Shown one piece after another: positions 35,947 through 62,840 of a stretch of DNA of 64,000 nt. Both the position numbers and the translations under genes were made by a program. The notes below the pieces were generated by a model. It had not been told where the DNA came from and did not search any database. It saw only the letters and a program-made list of their open reading frames with translations. Numbering within the stretch: position 1 is the first letter of the stretch; the number at the start of each line of letters is the position of its first letter. The stretch comes from Inmirania thermothiophila. Its GTDB lineage: Bacteria; Pseudomonadota; Gammaproteobacteria; DSM-100275. Location: positions 248,001 through 312,000 of the forward strand of contig NZ_RJVI01000002.1 in NCBI RefSeq assembly GCF_003751635.1, read 5' to 3'.

Positions 35947-37115
35947 TCGGGCTCGCCGTGCTGGGGGCCACGGGCTCCATCGGGCGCAGTACCCTGGACG
36001 TGGCCGCGCGCCATCCCGACCGCTTCCGCGTCGTCGCCCTGGCCGGCGCGCGCGACGTCGAGGGGATGCGGGCGCTGTGCGGGCGCTTCCGCCCGGCGGT
36101 GGTGGCCATGGCCGAGCCCGCCGCGGCGCGCCGCCTGGCGCAGGGCCTGCGCGAGGAGGGCCTGGGGATCGAGGTCCTCGCCGGCGCCGAGGGCGTCGAG
36201 GCGGTGGCGGCGCTGCCCGAGGCCGCCTTCGTCATGGCGGCCATCGTCGGTGCGGCGGGGCTGCGCCCGGCGCTCGCGGCGGCGCGCGCGGGCAAGCGCG
36301 TGCTGCTGGCGAACAAGGAGTCGCTGGTGATGGCCGGCGCCCTGTTCATGGAGGCGGTGCGCGAGGGGGGGGCGGAGCTCGTCCCCATCGACAGCGAGCA
36401 CAACGCCGTCTTCCAGTGCCTGCCGCCGGGCAGCCGGCCGGGGCAGGCCCCGGCCGGCGTGCGGCGGATCATCCTCACCGCCTCCGGCGGGCCGTTCCGC
36501 GACGCGCCGCTGGAGCGGCTGGCGGCGGTCACGCCCGAGGAGGCCTGCGCCCATCCCAACTGGTCCATGGGGCGCAAGATCTCGGTGGACTCGGCGACCA
36601 TGATGAACAAGGGCCTGGAAGTGATGGAGGCCTGCTGGCTCTTCGGGCTGCCGGCGGAGCGCGTGGAGGTGGTGCTGCACCCGCAGAGCATCGTCCACTC
36701 CCTGGTGGAGTACGTGGACGGCTCGGTGCTGGCGCAGCTCGGCAATCCGGACATGCGCACGCCCATCGCCCAGGCCCTGGGCTGGCCGGAGCGGATCGAG
36801 GCGGGCGTCGAGGCGTTGGATCTGGTGCGCGCCGGCCGGCTCGACTTCCGCGCCCCCGACCCTGGGCGCTATCCCTGCCTGGGCCTCGCCTACGCGGCCC
36901 AGCGCGCGGGGGGGACGGCGCCGGCGATCCTCAACGCCGCCAACGAGGTGGCGGTGGCGGCCTTCCTCGGCGGGCGGCTGCCCTTTACGGCCATCGCCGA
37001 GGTGATCGAGGACACCCTGGCGGCAGTGCCGGCGGGGCCGGCCGACAGCCTCGAGGCGGTGCTCGAGGCCGACCGCCGGGCACGAGAGCACGCCGCGCGG
37101 CGGGCGGCGGCCTGA
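35943..37115 (+). CDS. dxr: 1-deoxy-D-xylulose 5-phosphate reductoisomerase
   Basis: 390-residue NADPH enzyme turning DXP into 2-C-methylerythritol 4-phosphate, the committed step of the MEP isoprenoid pathway. It shows [14 protein letters not shown] (NADPH loop), [25 protein letters not shown] (metal-binding acids) and [24 protein letters not shown] 35943 overlaps the cdsA stop by four bases. It would be the consumer of any DXP made by the RuBisCO-like/cupin protein at 59897. Confidence 0.97.
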
Positions 37116-55191: not shown

Positions 55192-55482
55192 GTGCGCTGG
55201 CTGCTGCTCCTCCTCGCCGTCCTGCTGGCGGTGCTGCAGTACCGCCTGTGGCTGGGGGAGGGCGGGCTGCGCAGCGTGGCCGCGCTGCAGCGGGCGATCG
55301 CCGCGCAGGCGGAGGAGAACGCGCGCCTGGCCGAGCGCAACCGCCGCCTCGCCGCCGAGGTCATGGATCTCAAGGAGGGGGTGGAGGCGATCGAGGAGCG
55401 GGCGCGCAGCGAGCTGGGCATGATCGGGCCCGGCGAGACCTTCTTCCAGGTGGTGGCGCCGGAGGCGGAGGATGGCCGCTGA
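55192..55482 (+). CDS. ftsB: Cell division protein FtsB
   Basis: 96-residue bitopic membrane protein of the divisome (with FtsL and FtsQ). The single N-terminal helix is MRWLLLLLAVLLAVLQYRLW. A periplasmic coiled coil follows (AEENARLAERNRRLAAEVMDL), then the conserved end ERARSELGMIGPGETFFQ. GTG 55192 starts it, six bases after eno; the end overlaps ispD by 11 bases. Confidence 0.95.
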   Translation: MRWLLLLLAVLLAVLQYRLWLGEGGLRSVAALQRAIAAQAEENARLAERNRRLAAEVMDLKEGVEAIEERARSELGMIGPGETFFQVVAPEAEDGR

Positions 55483-56173
55483 GCGGCTGTGGGTGGTGGT
55501 GCCGGCGGCGGGGCGCGGCACCCGCATGGGGGCGGACCGGCCCAAGCAGTACCTGCGCCTGGCGGGGCGGCCCGTGCTCGAGCACGCGCTGCATCGGGCC
55601 TGCGCCCACCCGGCGGCGGCGGGCGCGGTGGTGGCGCTGGCCGCGGACGACGGCGGCTGGGGCGAGGTGCGGCCGCCGGAGGGGGTCGCGGTGGCCACCG
55701 TGACCGGCGGTGCCGAGCGCTGCGATTCCGTGCGGGCGGCGCTCGCCGCCCTCGCGGGACGGGCCCGGGCGGAGGACCTCGTGGCGGTGCACGACGCGGC
55801 GCGCCCGTGCCTGCCGCGGCGGGACCTGGAGGCGGTGGTGGCGGCGGCCGCCGCCGACGCGGACGGCGCGCTGCTCGCGCTGCCGGTGGGCGACACCCTC
55901 AAGCGCGAGGCCGAGGGCCGGGTCGCGGAGACGGTGCCGCGGGAGGGGCTGTGGCGCGCGCTCACGCCGCAGGTCTTCCGCTACGGGCTCCTGCGCGAGG
56001 CCCTCGAGGGCGCCGCCGGGGCGCCGGTCACCGACGAGGCGGCGGCGGTGGAGCGGCTCGGGCGGCGGCCGCGGCTGGTGGCGGGCAGCCCCCTCAATCT
56101 CAAGATCACCCATCCGGGCGACCTGGCGCTGGCGGCGGCGGCCCTGCGCCTGCTGGAGGAGGAGGGGGCATGA
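55472..56173 (+). CDS. ispD: 2-C-methyl-D-erythritol 4-phosphate cytidylyltransferase
   Basis: 233-residue MEP-pathway enzyme using CTP. The nucleotide-binding opening is [19 protein letters not shown]. Further motifs are [19 protein letters not shown] and [12 protein letters not shown]. It overlaps both ftsB upstream and ispF downstream (ATGA), a tight coupling usual in the class. Confidence 0.96.
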
Positions 56174-56652
56174 TCCCGCGCATCGGCCACGGCTTCGACG
56201 TCCACCGCTTCGGGCCCGGCGACGGCGTGGTGCTGGGCGGCGTGCGCATCCCGCACACCCACGGGCTCATCGCCCACTCCGACGGCGACGTCGTCATCCA
56301 CGCCCTCTGCGACGCCCTCCTCGGGGCCGCCGCCCTCGGCGACATCGGCCGCCACTTCCCCGACCGCGATCCGGCGTGGGCGGGGGCCGACAGCCGCGTG
56401 CTCCTGCGCGAGGTGGTGGCGAGGGTGGCGGCGGCGGGGCTGAGGCCCGGCAACGCCGACGTCACCGTCATCGCCCAGGCCCCGCGGCTCGCCCCCCACG
56501 TCGAGGTCATGCGCGCCCGCCTCGCCGCCGACCTCGGCGTCGAGGTGGGGGCGGTGAGCATCAAGGCCACCACCTCCGAGGGGCTCGGTGCCGTGGGCCG
56601 CGGGGAGGGCATCGCCGCCCACGCCGTGGTCCTGCTCCTGCCCCGTGGCTGA
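56170..56652 (+). CDS. ispF: 2-C-methyl-D-erythritol 2,4-cyclodiphosphate synthase
   Basis: 160-residue zinc enzyme of the MEP pathway. The metal site is [13 protein letters not shown] (Asp and His). The second block is [21 protein letters not shown], and the C-terminal block is [19 protein letters not shown]. Length is standard. It overlaps ispD by four bases and the truD start by about eight. Confidence 0.97.
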
Positions 56653-57715
56653 GGAGGGCGTGGCGCCGGGCGCCGTGGGGGATCCCCTGGCGGCGATCCC
56701 TTTCGCCCACGGGGGGCCGGTGGGGCGCGGGCGGCTGCGGGTGCGGCCCGAGGACTTCGTGGTCGAGGAGGTCCTGCGCTTCGCCCCAGAAGGCCGCGGC
56801 GAGCACGTCTACCTGCAGGTGGAGAAGGTGGATGCGGACACCGCGTGGGTGGCGCAGCGGCTCGCGCGGGCCGCCGGCATGGGCGCGGCGCGGGTGGCCT
56901 GGGCCGGCCTCAAGGACCGCCGCGCCGTCGCCCGCCAGTGGTTCTCCGTCCACCTGCCGCGTGCGCTGCCGGTGGACTGGGAACGGCACGCCGAGGGCCG
57001 TTTCCGCGTCCTCGCCGAGACCCGGCACCGGCGCGCGCTGCGCCGGGGCGGGCTCGCCGGCAACCGCTTCCGCCTCGTGGTGCGGGAGCTGAGCGCCGAT
57101 CCGCGGGCGCTCGCCGCGCGTCTCGGGCGCATCGCCGAGGCGGGGGTGCCGAACCTCTTCGGGCCGCAGCGCTTCGGGCAGGGGGGGAGCAACCTGGAGG
57201 CCGCCGCGGTCTGGTTCGGCGGCGGCCCCGCCCCCACCGGGCGCTTCCGGCGCGGCATGGTGCTCTCGGCCGCCCGCGCCCACCTCTTCAACCGGGTGGC
57301 GGCGGCGCGCATCGCCGACGGCTCCTGGGCGCGGCTGCTGCCGGGGGAGGCGGTGGCGCTCGCCGGCTCGCGCTCGGTCTTCGCCGCGCCGCAGGCGGAC
57401 GAGGCCCTGGCGCGGCGCTGCCGGCGCGGCGACCTCCACCCGAGCGGCCCCCTCTGGGGTGCCGGGCCGTCGCTGGCCTGCGGCGCCTGCGCCGCCCTCG
57501 AGGCGGCGGTGCTGGCGCCGTGGGCGGCCTGGTGCCGGGGCCTCGAGGCGGCAGGGCTCGCCCACGAGCGGCGGGCGCTGCGGGTGCTGCCACAGGGGCT
57601 GCGCTGGCGCCTGGAGGGCGACGCGCTGGTGCTGCGCTTCGCCCTGCCGTCCGGGGCCTATGCCACCGCCCTGGTACGCGAGCTGCTGGCATGCCCGCAG
57701 GACGCATGTGGTTAA
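56645..57715 (+). CDS. truD: tRNA pseudouridine(13) synthase
   Basis: 356-residue pseudouridine synthase acting on U13 of tRNA-Glu. The catalytic aspartate is in [20 protein letters not shown]. The opening [19 protein letters not shown] and the TRUD insertion domain follow the family pattern, with [21 protein letters not shown] 56645, overlapping ispF, is taken as the start; GTG 56660 and GTG 56675 are alternatives and differ only in a non-conserved lead. The order ispD-ispF-truD is conserved; surE, the usual next gene, is displaced by 4.4 kb. Confidence 0.94.
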
Positions 57716-57793: not shown

Positions 57794-58456
57794 ATGCGGG
57801 TGCTGCTGGTGGAGGACGATCATCCGCTGGGGGAGGGCGTGGCCGAGGGGCTCCGCCTGCAGGGCTACGTGGTGGACTGGGTCACGGGCGGCCGCGAGGC
57901 GCGGGGCATGCTGGAGGCCGGCGGCTACGACGCCGTCGTCCTCGACCTCCTGCTGCCGCCGCCGGACGGGTGGACGCTGCTGCGGGAGATGCGCCGGCGC
58001 GGGGACGACACGCCGGTGCTGGTGCTGACGGCGTGCGACGCGGTGGAGGCGCGGGTGCGGGGGCTCGACGAGGGGGCCGACGACTACCTCGTCAAGCCCT
58101 TCGACCTCGACGAGCTGTGCGCGCGCCTGCGGGCGATCCGGCGGCGGCGGGCGGGGCAGGTGGGGGCGCTCCTGCGCCACGGGGAGATCGCGGTGGACAC
58201 GGCGGCGCACCGGGTCTGGCGGGACGGCGAGCCGGTACCGCTCACCCCGCGGGAGTTCGAGATCCTGGTCCTGCTCCTGGAGCATCGCGGGCGCGTGCTC
58301 TCGCGCAGCCGGCTCGAGCGCAGCCTCTACGACGACGCCGACCGGATCGAGAGCAACGCCGTCGAGGTCCACATCCATCACCTGCGGCGCAAGCTCGGCA
58401 GCGGGCTCATCCGCACCGTGCGCGGCGTCGGCTACGTCATCGACGCGCCGGCATGA
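57794..58456 (+). CDS. OmpR-family response regulator (QseB/PmrA-like)
   Basis: 220-residue DNA-binding response regulator. The receiver domain has the acidic pair in LLVEDDH, phospho-acceptor D51 (AVVLDLLLPPPDGW), the threonine in LVLTA and the lysine in DDYLVKPFDLDEL. The C-terminal winged helix (about 125-220) contains LTPREFEILVLLLEHRGRVL and a VEVHIHHLRRKLG recognition helix. GAGGGAACACGGCG precedes the ATG. Its stop overlaps the kinase start by four bases. A TTAAC direct repeat upstream suggests autoregulation. Confidence 0.95.
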   Translation: MRVLLVEDDHPLGEGVAEGLRLQGYVVDWVTGGREARGMLEAGGYDAVVLDLLLPPPDGWTLLREMRRRGDDTPVLVLTACDAVEARVRGLDEGADDYLVKPFDLDELCARLRAIRRRRAGQVGALLRHGEIAVDTAAHRVWRDGEPVPLTPREFEILVLLLEHRGRVLSRSRLERSLYDDADRIESNAVEVHIHHLRRKLGSGLIRTVRGVGYVIDAPA

Positions 58457-59871
58457 AGGGTTCGCTGCGGGCGCGGCTGCTGCTGCCCCTGCTCGGCGGC
58501 ACGCTGCTGCTGTGGGGTGTCGGGGCTGCGTTCAGCTACTGGCGCGCCACCCGCGAGGTGGCGGCCTTCCACGACGCGCAACTGGCGCAGACGGCGCGGG
58601 TGCTGCTCTCGTTGAGTCACCACGAGCTGGGCGAGGAGCTCGCCTTCCAGTCCGGGGCGGCGCCGTCGCCGGACTCGCTCCTGGCGCACCCGCGCGTCCT
58701 CGACTTGCCCATGGTGCACGACTACGAGGCCCCCGTGGCCTTCCAGGTCTGGGTCCTCGGCGACCGTCTCGTGCTGCGCTCGCCCAACGCGCCGGCGGGC
58801 GCACGGCTGGCGGAGGTGGCCGGCTTCTCGGAGCGGGAGATCGGCGGCGCGCGCTGGCGCGTCTACGCGGTGGTCCATCCGGCGGGCGAGATCGAGGCCC
58901 AGGTGGCCGAGCGGCTGGACCTGCGCGGCGGCCTGGCGCGCCAGGTGGCCTGGGGCATGCTGGCGCCCAGCATTGTGCTGGTGCCGGTGCTGGGGCTCTT
59001 CATCTGGTGGTGGGTGGGGGTCGGGCTCCGCCCCCTCAGGGCGCTGCAGGGTCAGCTCGCCCGGCGTGCCCCGGACCGGCTCGATGCGCTGGAGCCCGAG
59101 GGCCTGCCGGCGGAGGTCCGGCCGCTGGTGGAGGCCCTCAACGCCCTGCTGGTGCGGCTGCGTCTGGCGCTCGAGCGCGAGCGGCGCTTCACCGCCGACG
59201 CGGCCCACGAGCTGCGCACGCCGCTGGCGGCGCTGCGCACGCAGGCGCAGGTGGCGATGCGGGCCCGGGAGGGCGGCGACCGCCAGCGTGCGCTGCGGCG
59301 GGTGGTGGAGGGGGTCGACCGCATGACCCACCTGGTGGGCCAGCTCCTGACCCTGGCGCGCATGGAGCCGGGGCAGACCGCGGGGGGCGGCCGCGCCGAC
59401 CTCGCGCAGGTGGTGGAGGAGGTGACGGCGCAGCTCGCCCCGCTCGCCATCGCCCGCGGCATCGACCTCTCCTTGGAGGCGGTGCCGGCGCCGGTGGAGG
59501 CGGGCGAGGAGACCCTCGCCGTCCTCACCCGCAACCTCGTCGACAACGCCGTGCGGTACACGCCCGCGGGCGGGCGGGTGGCGGTGCGGGTGGCGGTGGC
59601 GGAGCGGGGGGCTGCGGTGCTCACGGTGGAGGACAGCGGCCCGGGGATCCCGCCGGAGGAGCGGCAGCGCGTCTTCGAGCGCTTCTACCGCCGGCCGGGC
59701 AGCGCCGGCGCGGGCTGCGGCCTGGGCCTTTCCATCGTGCGGCGCATCGCCGAGCTGCACGGCGCCCGCATCCGGCTCGAGGAGTCCCGCTATAATGGCC
59801 TGCGCGTCGAGGTCCGCTGGCCGGCACCGGAGCCGGCGCCGCCGGCGCGCGGGGTGGCGGACCACGCCTGA
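58453..59871 (+). CDS. Sensor histidine kinase (QseC-like)
   Basis: 472-residue membrane sensor kinase. TM1 is at about 8-28 and TM2 at about 166-188. A periplasmic domain of about 135 residues lies between them, with FQVWVLGDRLVLRSPNAP, a pattern typical of QseC/PmrB-like sensors. The phospho-acceptor H252 is in FTADAAHELRTPLAAL. The ATPase blocks are LVDNAVRYTP, VEDSGPGIPPEE and GCGLGLSIVRRIA. The ligand is unknown. The RuBisCO-like gene begins 25 bases after its stop, so kinase and metabolic gene may be one transcript. Confidence 0.93.
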   Translation: MKGSLRARLLLPLLGGTLLLWGVGAAFSYWRATREVAAFHDAQLAQTARVLLSLSHHELGEELAFQSGAAPSPDSLLAHPRVLDLPMVHDYEAPVAFQVWVLGDRLVLRSPNAPAGARLAEVAGFSEREIGGARWRVYAVVHPAGEIEAQVAERLDLRGGLARQVAWGMLAPSIVLVPVLGLFIWWWVGVGLRPLRALQGQLARRAPDRLDALEPEGLPAEVRPLVEALNALLVRLRLALERERRFTADAAHELRTPLAALRTQAQVAMRAREGGDRQRALRRVVEGVDRMTHLVGQLLTLARMEPGQTAGGGRADLAQVVEEVTAQLAPLAIARGIDLSLEAVPAPVEAGEETLAVLTRNLVDNAVRYTPAGGRVAVRVAVAERGAAVLTVEDSGPGIPPEERQRVFERFYRRPGSAGAGCGLGLSIVRRIAELHGARIRLEESRYNGLRVEVRWPAPEPAPPARGVADHA

Positions 59872-59896
59872 GATCCTGCATCTTCCGGGAAATCCG

Positions 59897-61492
59897 TTGT
59901 CGAGAGAGATCCTCGTCACCTACGAGCTCGCCGCCGGGGACGCGGAGGAGGCGGCGGCGCGGGCGGACGCCATCGCCCACGAGCAGACCGTGGAGCTCTC
60001 GCCGCGGGTGCTGGGGCGCTTCCCCGCGGCGCGCGGGATGGTGGGCGGCCGCGTCGACGGGCCGCATGCGGCGGGCCCGGGGCGCTGGCGGGTCACCGTC
60101 GCCTACCCGGCGGAGGTGGTGGGCTCGGATCCGCCCCAGCTCCTCAACCTCCTGTGGGGCAACGTCTCGCTCCTGGAGGGCGTGGTGCTGGCGGGGCTCG
60201 CGCTGCCGGAGGGGGTTCTGCGGGGGCTCGGCGGGCCCCGCTACGGCATCGAGGGGCTGCGCCAGCTCACCGGCGTGTACGGCCGCCCCCTCGCCGCCAC
60301 CGCCCTCAAGCCCGTGGGGCTCGACGCGGTGTCGCTGGCGGCGATCGCCGAGGCCTTCGTGGAGGGCGGTGGCGACCTGGTCAAGGACGACCACGGCCTG
60401 GCCGACCAGGCCACGGCGCCCTTCGAGGAGCGCGTGGCGCGCTGCCAGGAGGCGGTGGAGCGGGCGGCGGCCCGCACCGGCCGGCGCGCCCTCTACCTTC
60501 CGGCCATCAACGCCGCGGGGACGCGCTTGGAGGCACAGCTGGAGTACGCGGTGCGGGCCGGGGTGCGCGGCGTCCTGGTCTCGCCCGCGATCCTGGGGCT
60601 CGAGCGCATGCGCTGGATCGCCGCCAGCTTCCCCCTCGTGGTCCTGGCCCATCCGGCCATGACCGGGGGCTGGCTGGCGCGGGCGGGGCACGGCATCGAG
60701 CACGGTCTCCTCCTCGGGACGCTGTTCCGGCTCTTCGGCGCCGATGCCGCCGTCTTCCCCGACGCCGGGGGGCGCTTCGGGTTCACGCCGGCCCAGTGCG
60801 AGCGCATCGCCGGGGCCCTGCGCGAGCCGCTGGGTCCGGTGCGTGCGGCGATGCCGGTGCCGGCCGGGGGCATGGCGCTGGAGGACGTGCCGGCGCTCGT
60901 GCGGCGCTACGGCGAGGACGCGATCCTGCTCATCGGCGGTGCGGTGCTGGGGAGCCCGGACGAGGTGCGCCGCAGCGCCGCCCGCTTCGCCGAGGCCCTG
61001 GGGGCGCAGGCGGCGGCGGGCGGCGCCCGGACCCCGTCACCGGCGCCTTCCCGCGGCGGTGCGGCGCCGGCGGGGGCGTTCCTCGCCCAGGAGGCGCCCT
61101 TCCGCTGGGCGGCGCGGCGCGCACGCCGCTACAAGGAGGACGGCCAGGGGCGCTTCCGCGACGTGCAGCGTTTCGAGCTCGTGGGCCAGCACGGCGAGTC
61201 CACCGCCTTCGAGCTGCGCTACTTCGAGATCGGTCCCGGTGGCTACACGACCCTGGAGGCGCACGTGCACGAGCATGCCATCATCGGCGCCCGCGGCCGG
61301 GGCCGGGTGCGCATCGGGGAGGAGGAGTTCGAGATCGGGCCCCACGACGTGGCCTACGTGGCCCCGCTGGGGGCGCACCAGCTGCGCAACGAGGGCGGCG
61401 AGCCCTTCGGCTTCTACTGCATCGTCGACCGCCGGCGGGACCGGCCGCGCCCGCTGGATCCCGCCGCTCAGCCGCCGCGCAGGAGGACGTAG
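59897..61492 (+). CDS. RuBisCO-like protein (form IV) fused to a cupin domain
   Basis: 531 residues. Residues 1-370 are a RuBisCO large-chain fold: ATALKP (K138, the position of RuBisCO K175), GGDLVKDDHGLADQ (K163, D165, with H166 where RuBisCO has the metal-binding glutamate) and AHPAMTGGW (H252). Loop 6 reads AMPVPAGGMALEDVP and lacks the catalytic lysine, so carboxylation is not expected. After a Pro/Ala/Gly linker (about 370-395), residues 400-511 are a cupin with HVHEH (456-460) and PLGAHQLRN (H494). In R. rubrum an RLP and a separate cupin carry out the methylthioribulose-phosphate to DXP branch of methylthioadenosine salvage. TTG 59897 is the only start fitting the domain. Confidence 0.85.
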   Translation: MSREILVTYELAAGDAEEAAARADAIAHEQTVELSPRVLGRFPAARGMVGGRVDGPHAAGPGRWRVTVAYPAEVVGSDPPQLLNLLWGNVSLLEGVVLAGLALPEGVLRGLGGPRYGIEGLRQLTGVYGRPLAATALKPVGLDAVSLAAIAEAFVEGGGDLVKDDHGLADQATAPFEERVARCQEAVERAAARTGRRALYLPAINAAGTRLEAQLEYAVRAGVRGVLVSPAILGLERMRWIAASFPLVVLAHPAMTGGWLARAGHGIEHGLLLGTLFRLFGADAAVFPDAGGRFGFTPAQCERIAGALREPLGPVRAAMPVPAGGMALEDVPALVRRYGEDAILLIGGAVLGSPDEVRRSAARFAEALGAQAAAGGARTPSPAPSRGGAAPAGAFLAQEAPFRWAARRARRYKEDGQGRFRDVQRFELVGQHGESTAFELRYFEIGPGGYTTLEAHVHEHAIIGARGRGRVRIGEEEFEIGPHDVAYVAPLGAHQLRNEGGEPFGFYCIVDRRRDRPRPLDPAAQPPRRRT

Positions 61493-61998
61493 AGGGCGCC
61501 GAGGCCGCCGTCGGCGGGCGGCGCCGAACAGAAGGCCAGGACCTCGTCGCGGCGGGCGAGCCAGCGCGGGACGGCGCGGCGAAGCACCGGCTCGCCGCCG
61601 GGCGAGCGCAGCCCCTTGCCGTGGATCACCCGCACGCAGCGCACGCCGCGTCCGAGCGAGCGGCGGAGGAAGGCGGCGAGGGCCTCGCGGGCCTCGTCCG
61701 CGCGCAGCCCGTGGAGGTCGATCTGGTCGCCCACGGCGTAGTGGCCGCGGCGCAGGCGGCGCAGGATGCGCCGGTCGAGCCCCGGCCGCAGGAAGACCAC
61801 CTCCTCGCCGGTCTCCACCTCGAGGGCGAGGGGCGAGTGCGAGAGCGAGGCGCGCAGCACCGCCTCGCGCTCGGCGGCGCTCTGCAGGGCGCGCGGCGGC
61901 GGGCGCGGTCCGCGCACCTCCGCCCGCTCGGGGGTGAGGCGGCGGGCGCCGCGGACGGCGCGGCGGAACAGCGCACGGTCCTCGTCGTCGACGGGCAT
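61468..61998 (-). CDS. Smr-domain protein
   Basis: 176 residues. A charged N-terminal region (about 1-85) is followed by a C-terminal Smr domain. The domain shows [19 protein letters not shown] (the DLHG motif) and [19 protein letters not shown] (HGKG), the signatures of MutS2-type and SmrA/SmrB nucleases. SmrB-like proteins cleave mRNA at collided ribosomes, and others nick DNA; which applies here is not known. It converges on the RuBisCO-like gene and the two coding ends overlap by 25 bases. Confidence 0.9.
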
Positions 61999-62087: not shown

Positions 62088-62840
62088 ATGCGCATCCTCG
62101 TGACCAACGACGACGGCTACCGCGCGCCCGGGCTGCAGGTGCTCGCCGATGCGCTGGCGACGCTCGGCGAGGTGACGGTGGTCGCCCCCGAGCGCAACCG
62201 CAGCGGCGCCAGCAACTCGCTCACCCTCGACCGTCCGTTGCGCGCGCACCGCGCCGACAACGGCTACATCTACGTGGACGGCACCCCCACCGACTGCGTC
62301 CATCTCGCCATCACGGGGCTGCTGGAGCGGGAGCCCGACATGGTGGTCTCGGGCATCAACGCCGGCGCCAACCTCGGCGACGACGTCCTCTACTCGGGGA
62401 CGGTGGCGGCGGCGATGGAAGGGCGCTTCCTCGGCTACCCGGCGGTGGCGGTGTCGCTGGCCGCCCACGACCCGCAGCACTTCCCCACCGCGGCGCGGGT
62501 GGCACGGGCCATCGTCGAGCGGCTGCTGAGCGACCCCCTGCCGCCGGACACCATCCTCAACGTCAACGTCCCCGACCTGCCCATGGAGGCCGTGGCGGGG
62601 ATCGAGGTCACCCGCCTCGGGCACCGCCACCGCGCCGAGCCGGTGGTGCGCACCACCGATCCCCGCGGGCGCCCCATCTACTGGATCGGGCCGGCGGGGC
62701 CGGAGGAGGACGCCGGCCCCGGCACCGACTTCCACGCCGTCGCCGCGGGGCGGGTGGCGCTGACGCCGATCCACGTCGACCTCACCCACCACGAGGCGCT
62801 GGGTCGGCTGCGGGCGTGGGCGGAGGCGCTGCGCCCGTGA
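62088..62840 (+). CDS. surE: 5'/3'-nucleotidase SurE
   Basis: 250-residue survival-protein nucleotidase acting on nucleoside monophosphates and polyphosphate in the family. The metal site is [19 protein letters not shown]. Further blocks are [38 protein letters not shown] and [25 protein letters not shown] lies before the ATG. It overlaps pcm by one base. Confidence 0.97.

Follow-up and report, generated by a model that had tools for sequence, protein, structure and literature searches.

The 64,000-nucleotide stretch of Inmirania thermothiophila DNA analyzed here (positions 248,001 to 312,000 of contig NZ_RJVI01000002.1, hereafter the window) carries on its forward strand a gene for a 531-residue protein (59897..61492), in which a RuBisCO-like protein (RLP) and a cupin are joined in one chain. 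Our analyses indicated that this protein is very probably a bifunctional enzyme of the methylthioadenosine (MTA)-isoprenoid shunt, combining a 5-methylthioribulose-1-phosphate isomerase with a 1-methylthioxylulose 5-phosphate (MTXu-5P) methylsulfurylase. Two enzymes that are separate elsewhere would in this way be joined to convert a by-product of polyamine synthesis into an isoprenoid building block. The assignment was drawn from the fusion itself, the family placement of its halves, their conserved residues, and the pathway genes around them.

The gene has no internal stop and lies within a stop-free frame on the forward strand (59795-61492), its start probably being the TTG at 59897, 4 bases downstream of a possible ribosome binding site (GGGAAA, 59887..59892, forward strand). 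A Pfam search of the translated chain identified RuBisCO_large (E = 8.9e-24) and Cupin_2 (E = 1.4e-8), and the AlphaFold model (mean pLDDT 89) consisted of two confident domains with residues 384-393 disordered between them. On the basis of the structure matches, conserved residues, trees, and linker comparison described below, the chain was divided into an RLP domain (residues 1-372; 59897..61012), a flexible Ala/Gly/Pro linker of 23 residues (373-395; 61013..61081), and a cupin domain (396-531; 61082..61489), all on the forward strand. The third-position GC content was 0.95-0.97 in both halves alike. Since 27 further genomes were found to hold the same architecture in a single open reading frame (ORF), a frame error or an assembly or sequencing artefact was ruled out, and the joining of a RuBisCO-like fold, a linker, and a cupin in one gene, as claimed in the preliminary description of this DNA, was confirmed.

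The RuBisCO-superfamily fold of the first half was verified by Pfam, the AlphaFold model, and fold comparison. Among solved structures, its best match was 3qfw from Rhodopseudomonas palustris (269 bits), as against 141 bits for MtnW and at most 117 bits for the RuBisCOs, and 3qfw was also the closest in the fold comparison (TM-score 0.92, 42% identity). This structure is of the R. palustris RLP other than that named rlp2, and is taken here to be RLP1, which functions as a 5-methylthioribulose-1-phosphate isomerase in vivo according to deletion, metabolite, and enzyme work (PMC5893883). A 92-sequence tree placed the window protein with 3qfw inside the DeepYkr group (support 99), whereas the MtnW enolases formed a group of their own (support 96) and the RuBisCOs also lay outside; for the Photo and NonPhoto RLP types, the comparison was limited to scores and folds. 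Alignment further revealed that K138, K163, D164, D165, H252, R293, and F294 are kept in all fusions and in 3qfw. K163-D164-D165-H166 (60383..60394, forward strand) corresponds to the KDDE metal site of RuBisCO, and its first three residues are invariant, the fourth being His, Gln, or Asn in place of the Glu of RuBisCO. All these comparisons place the RLP half in the DeepYkr type, and not among the YkrW/MtnW enolases or the RuBisCOs.

The cupin half matched three solved structures, 3ibm, 3kgz, and 3jzv, with E values of about 1e-26 to 1e-24, the next match being at 1.7e-6. Of these, 3jzv (1.8e-24) is Rru_A2000 of Rhodospirillum rubrum, an MTXu-5P methylsulfurylase for which glutathione serves as the in vivo acceptor of the methylthio group (PMC4334135). 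H456, H458, H460, H494, and C508 were identical in 49 of 49 cupins (28 fused and 21 encoded adjacent to an RLP gene) as well as in all three structures, and the family cysteine is absent from 6a54-type cupins. C508 (61418..61420, forward strand), which aligns with a cysteine conserved without exception in Rru_A2000 and its relatives, is likely the catalytic residue of the cupin; the active-site cysteine reportedly attacks the methylthio group. The residues named in the preliminary description, namely K138, K163, H252, the HVHEH motif (456-460), and H494, were all located at those positions, but C508 had been missed. Stand-alone cupins of the methylsulfurylase kind were also observed in Elusimicrobiota, where they end in CxxC (CHIC and CRIC) and adjoin ATP synthase genes (L129:1459-1956 and L130:1411-1893).

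Profile searches of the I. thermothiophila genome detected speE, mtnP, mtnA, gshB, dxs, and dxr. The mtnP product scored above the cut-offs for both MTA phosphorylase and methylthioinosine phosphorylase, and its gene adjoins hpt, while mtnA adjoins a gene for an MTA-deaminase-like hydrolase. Neither an mtnD-type acireductone dioxygenase (ARD) nor a 3-hydroxy-3-methylglutaryl-CoA (HMG-CoA) reductase was found in the same searches of this genome. As judged from these profile matches, the genome has genes for the MTA-isoprenoid shunt, and the dioxygenase of classical salvage is missing. Two comparisons on which the assignment could have failed had been named in the preliminary description, and both left it standing: the cupin grouped with the methylsulfurylases by structure match and tree, not with unrelated cupins, and the RLP proved to be of the DeepYkr rather than the YkrW type in a genome in which both mtnP and mtnA were located and ARD was not found.

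In the proposed mechanism, spermidine synthesis by SpeE from S-adenosylmethionine (SAM) would leave MTA, which, possibly after deamination to methylthioinosine, would be converted by MtnP and MtnA to 5-methylthioribulose 1-phosphate. The RLP half would then shift the carbonyl by a 1,3-isomerization to give MTXu-5P, and C508, positioned beside the histidine-bound metal, would attack the methylthio group, releasing 1-deoxy-D-xylulose 5-phosphate (DXP) and leaving a methyl disulfide, to be resolved by a thiol (glutathione in this genome). DXP would pass to Dxr, and methanethiol to methionine synthesis. Tethering through the linker would keep the intermediate, which the isomerase yields in a 3:1 mixture, at a higher local concentration and draw the isomerization forward; since the linker is predicted to be disordered, tethering appeared more likely than a tunnel. 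From these comparisons, we infer the two reactions, the attack by the cysteine, and the advantage of tethering.

The distribution of the fusion was assessed by scanning a genome collection for relatives, in which the best 80 loci were taken and the window's genome and a relative, G044, were added. The single-ORF fusion was identified at no fewer than 28 loci in at least eight phyla, comprising Gammaproteobacteria (8), Planctomycetota (7), Nitrospirota (5), Acidobacteriota (4), and, among the best loci listed, one each in Firestoneibacteriota, KSB1, FCPU426, and Fibrobacterota, with linkers of 19-44 residues. In at least 21 relatives, the cupin is a separate gene directly downstream of the RLP gene. 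Plasmid records held no relative above about 41% identity among the matches listed. The RLP halves of all fusions except that of the window formed one clade in the tree, a tree with the window RLP inside this fused-type clade had a log-likelihood 14.6 higher than the quick tree (p-AU 0.76), and the fused cupins formed a single clade (support 100/99). Because of this gain in likelihood and the single cupin clade, a second, separate fusion event for the window was not supported, and the simplest reading would be one ancient fusion followed by transfer and some splitting.

The genes linked to fusions elsewhere count for the shunt function: in two Acidobacteriota (L040 and L044), mtnA precedes the fusion by about 1.1 kb, and in a KSB1 bin (L026:4515-8130) speD, speE, the fusion, and a DinB/thiol-transferase-like gene follow one another in this order. 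A class II aldolase gene (L040:7653-8471), possibly for the aldolase of the competing dihydroxyacetone phosphate shunt, adjoins one of the acidobacterial fusions. The scan also recovered a DeepYkr clade of RLPs without a linked cupin (25 rows, including L005, L062-L068, L073, L074, L079, L088, L093, and L098). In 16 genomes of this clade that were searched, a methylsulfurylase-type cupin was matched in none of 11 and only weakly and partially in 5; mtnA was nearby at five of its loci and mtnP at one. These RLPs might make DXP directly from 5-deoxyribulose 1-phosphate.

Several observations weigh against the proposed function of the fusion. The branch of the window's RLP half is long, and none of its neighbors in the tree is supported as its closest relative. 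In the unrooted cupin tree, the fused cupins stand on one side of a branch supported at 100/99 and the assayed stand-alone enzymes on the other, and the fused cupins have the private residues E427, L496, N498, and F504, so that their reducing thiol or substrate could differ. Of the 28 fusion genomes, only 7, all gammaproteobacterial, gave a glutathione synthetase match above the cut-off, and the others would need another thiol. The I. thermothiophila genome, moreover, contains dxs and can dispense with the shunt as a DXP source; the shunt thus probably serves salvage in this organism. In R. rubrum, dxs expression fell upon MTA feeding (PMC4334135). Taken together, the fused MTA-to-DXP enzyme proposed in the preliminary description was supported by the family placement and the pathway genes, although the fusion turned out to be widespread and the genome retains dxs.

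The separate, well-supported clade of fused cupins with its private residues and the scarcity of glutathione synthetase among the fusion genomes would favor a function in which the isomerase half works as proposed and the fused cupin employs another thiol partner or another 1-substituted xylulose phosphate. However, every metal-binding histidine and the cysteine are retained, gshB is present in the window's genome, and the fusions adjoin mtnA or speD-speE in some genomes, and we thus consider such a change of the cupin improbable. It is likewise unlikely that the main substrate is 5-deoxyribulose 1-phosphate derived from 5'-deoxyadenosine, with the cupin needed only for the methylthio form. 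Although the same isomerization would, from its reaction type, yield DXP directly, and spermidine synthase is weak in three Acidobacteriota fusion genomes and absent in one, the cysteine is invariant in all fused cupins, which argues for a methylthio substrate. An MtnW enolase acting on diketo-methylthiopentyl phosphate in classical methionine salvage, accompanied by an accessory cupin, was rejected as highly implausible: the NCBIfam MtnW models did match the fusion protein, but below their cut-offs (191 of 409 bits and 146 of 514 bits), MtnW enolases differ at the positions of P139, H166, R293, and F294 and form a separate clade, and ARD was not found in the genome. The reading as a carboxylating RuBisCO with a regulatory cupin attached, which the RuBisCO_large match might suggest, was dismissed as having next to no likelihood, given KDDH instead of KDDE, P253 and R293-F294 where RuBisCOs have Arg and Lys-Leu, respectively, and the grouping of the fusion away from RuBisCOs in the tree.

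With the shunt function as the preferred reading, we considered the genomes in which the fusion occurs without dxs. In profile searches, 7 of the 28 fusion genomes had dxr above the cut-off and no plausible dxs match, and HMG-CoA reductase was not found in any of the seven. They include G044, the KSB1 bin with the speD-speE cluster, and all four Acidobacteriota. G044 is a closed single gammaproteobacterial contig of 2.4 Mb with 99% completeness, in which dxs-like matches were confined to a single frame of 707 residues, a length typical of a transketolase. The remaining six are metagenome bins, from which a gene can be missing by chance, but dxs went undetected in each of the four Acidobacteriota. 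It is conceivable, at somewhat less than even likelihood, that the fused enzyme replaced Dxs in some bacteria, in which isoprenoids would then start from SAM by-products, and most DXP in these seven genomes could come from the fusion. Two observations speak against such a replacement: spermidine synthase in the Acidobacteriota fusion genomes was matched weakly and inside very long frames (three genomes) or not at all (one), and the sister of the G044 fusion (L042) resides in a genome with a partial dxs. While dxs was missing more often in fusion genomes (7 of 28) than in those with unfused genes (3 of 44; Fisher p 0.04), this association was only suggestive, since four of the seven belong to one Acidobacteriota clade. 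Three Chloroflexota genomes with an unfused RLP (G100, G110, and G125; loci L097, L066, and L088) likewise gave no dxs match. Replacement of Dxs by the MTA shunt has already been proposed, in a paper that reports both proteins in 5 of the 181 species missing only Dxs (PMC10663253).

In the window, dxr, whose product uses DXP, is located at 35952..37109 (profile match; G000:C2:283952-285109), and the genes preceding the fusion are ispD (55472..56173), ispF (56173..56652, start approximate; assigned by translation and a homologue in G014), truD (56588..57715), and those for an OmpR-type response regulator nearest QseB/PmrA (57794..58456) and a sensor histidine kinase nearest QseC (58456..59871), the latter separated from the fusion start by 25 bases; all are on the forward strand. 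Downstream, a Smr-domain gene on the reverse strand (61468..61998) overlaps the fusion gene end by 25 bases and is followed by surE (62088..62840, forward strand). Although dxr, ispD, and ispF are all present as the preliminary description had noted, the proximity of ispD and ispF is weak evidence for function and the linkage not specific, because the order eno-ispD-ispF-truD-surE is shared with G014, another gammaproteobacterium. In that truD-surE context, G014 has an unfused RLP, its stand-alone-type cupin being elsewhere in the genome. The QseBC-like two-component system (57794-59871) separates truD from the fusion; in G014 (L004), no such system was observed in the interval from truD to the RLP gene.

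Each half of the fusion is of a known kind. The RLP half resembles R. rubrum Rru_A1998 and R. palustris RLP1 (RPA2169) in fold (3qfw), sequence, KDDH motif, and active-site set, but these proteins stand alone, the R. palustris cupin being the neighboring locus tag RPA2170. Similarly, the cupin shares its histidines, conserved cysteine, and an RD[RK]P tail with Rru_A2000, which also stands alone and lies outside the fused-cupin clade. Methionine-salvage enzymes are joined in one chain in the MtnBD and MtnAK fusions of Tetrahymena as well (PMC3698126, PMC6302742), but those are other enzymes, of the classical dioxygenase pathway. Both an RLP and a cupin also occur in a few of the MEP (methylerythritol phosphate) pathway candidates without Dxs (PMC10663253); the available text of that paper does not mention a fusion, and the present analysis adds the fused genes, the closed genome, and the speD-speE cluster. 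No description of an RLP-cupin fusion was found in the literature searched, which covered few subscription journals and did not extend to Erb 2012 and Warlick 2012; within that literature, the fused version and its wide distribution are new.

The shunt appears as two separate proteins in the literature searched, and the persistence of the fused form over at least eight phyla provides gene-fusion evidence that both steps belong together. The fusion offers a single protein for measuring the channeling of the intermediate and marks genomes with a likely active shunt, and the fusion genomes without dxs make the source of the first MEP intermediate in such pathways directly testable.
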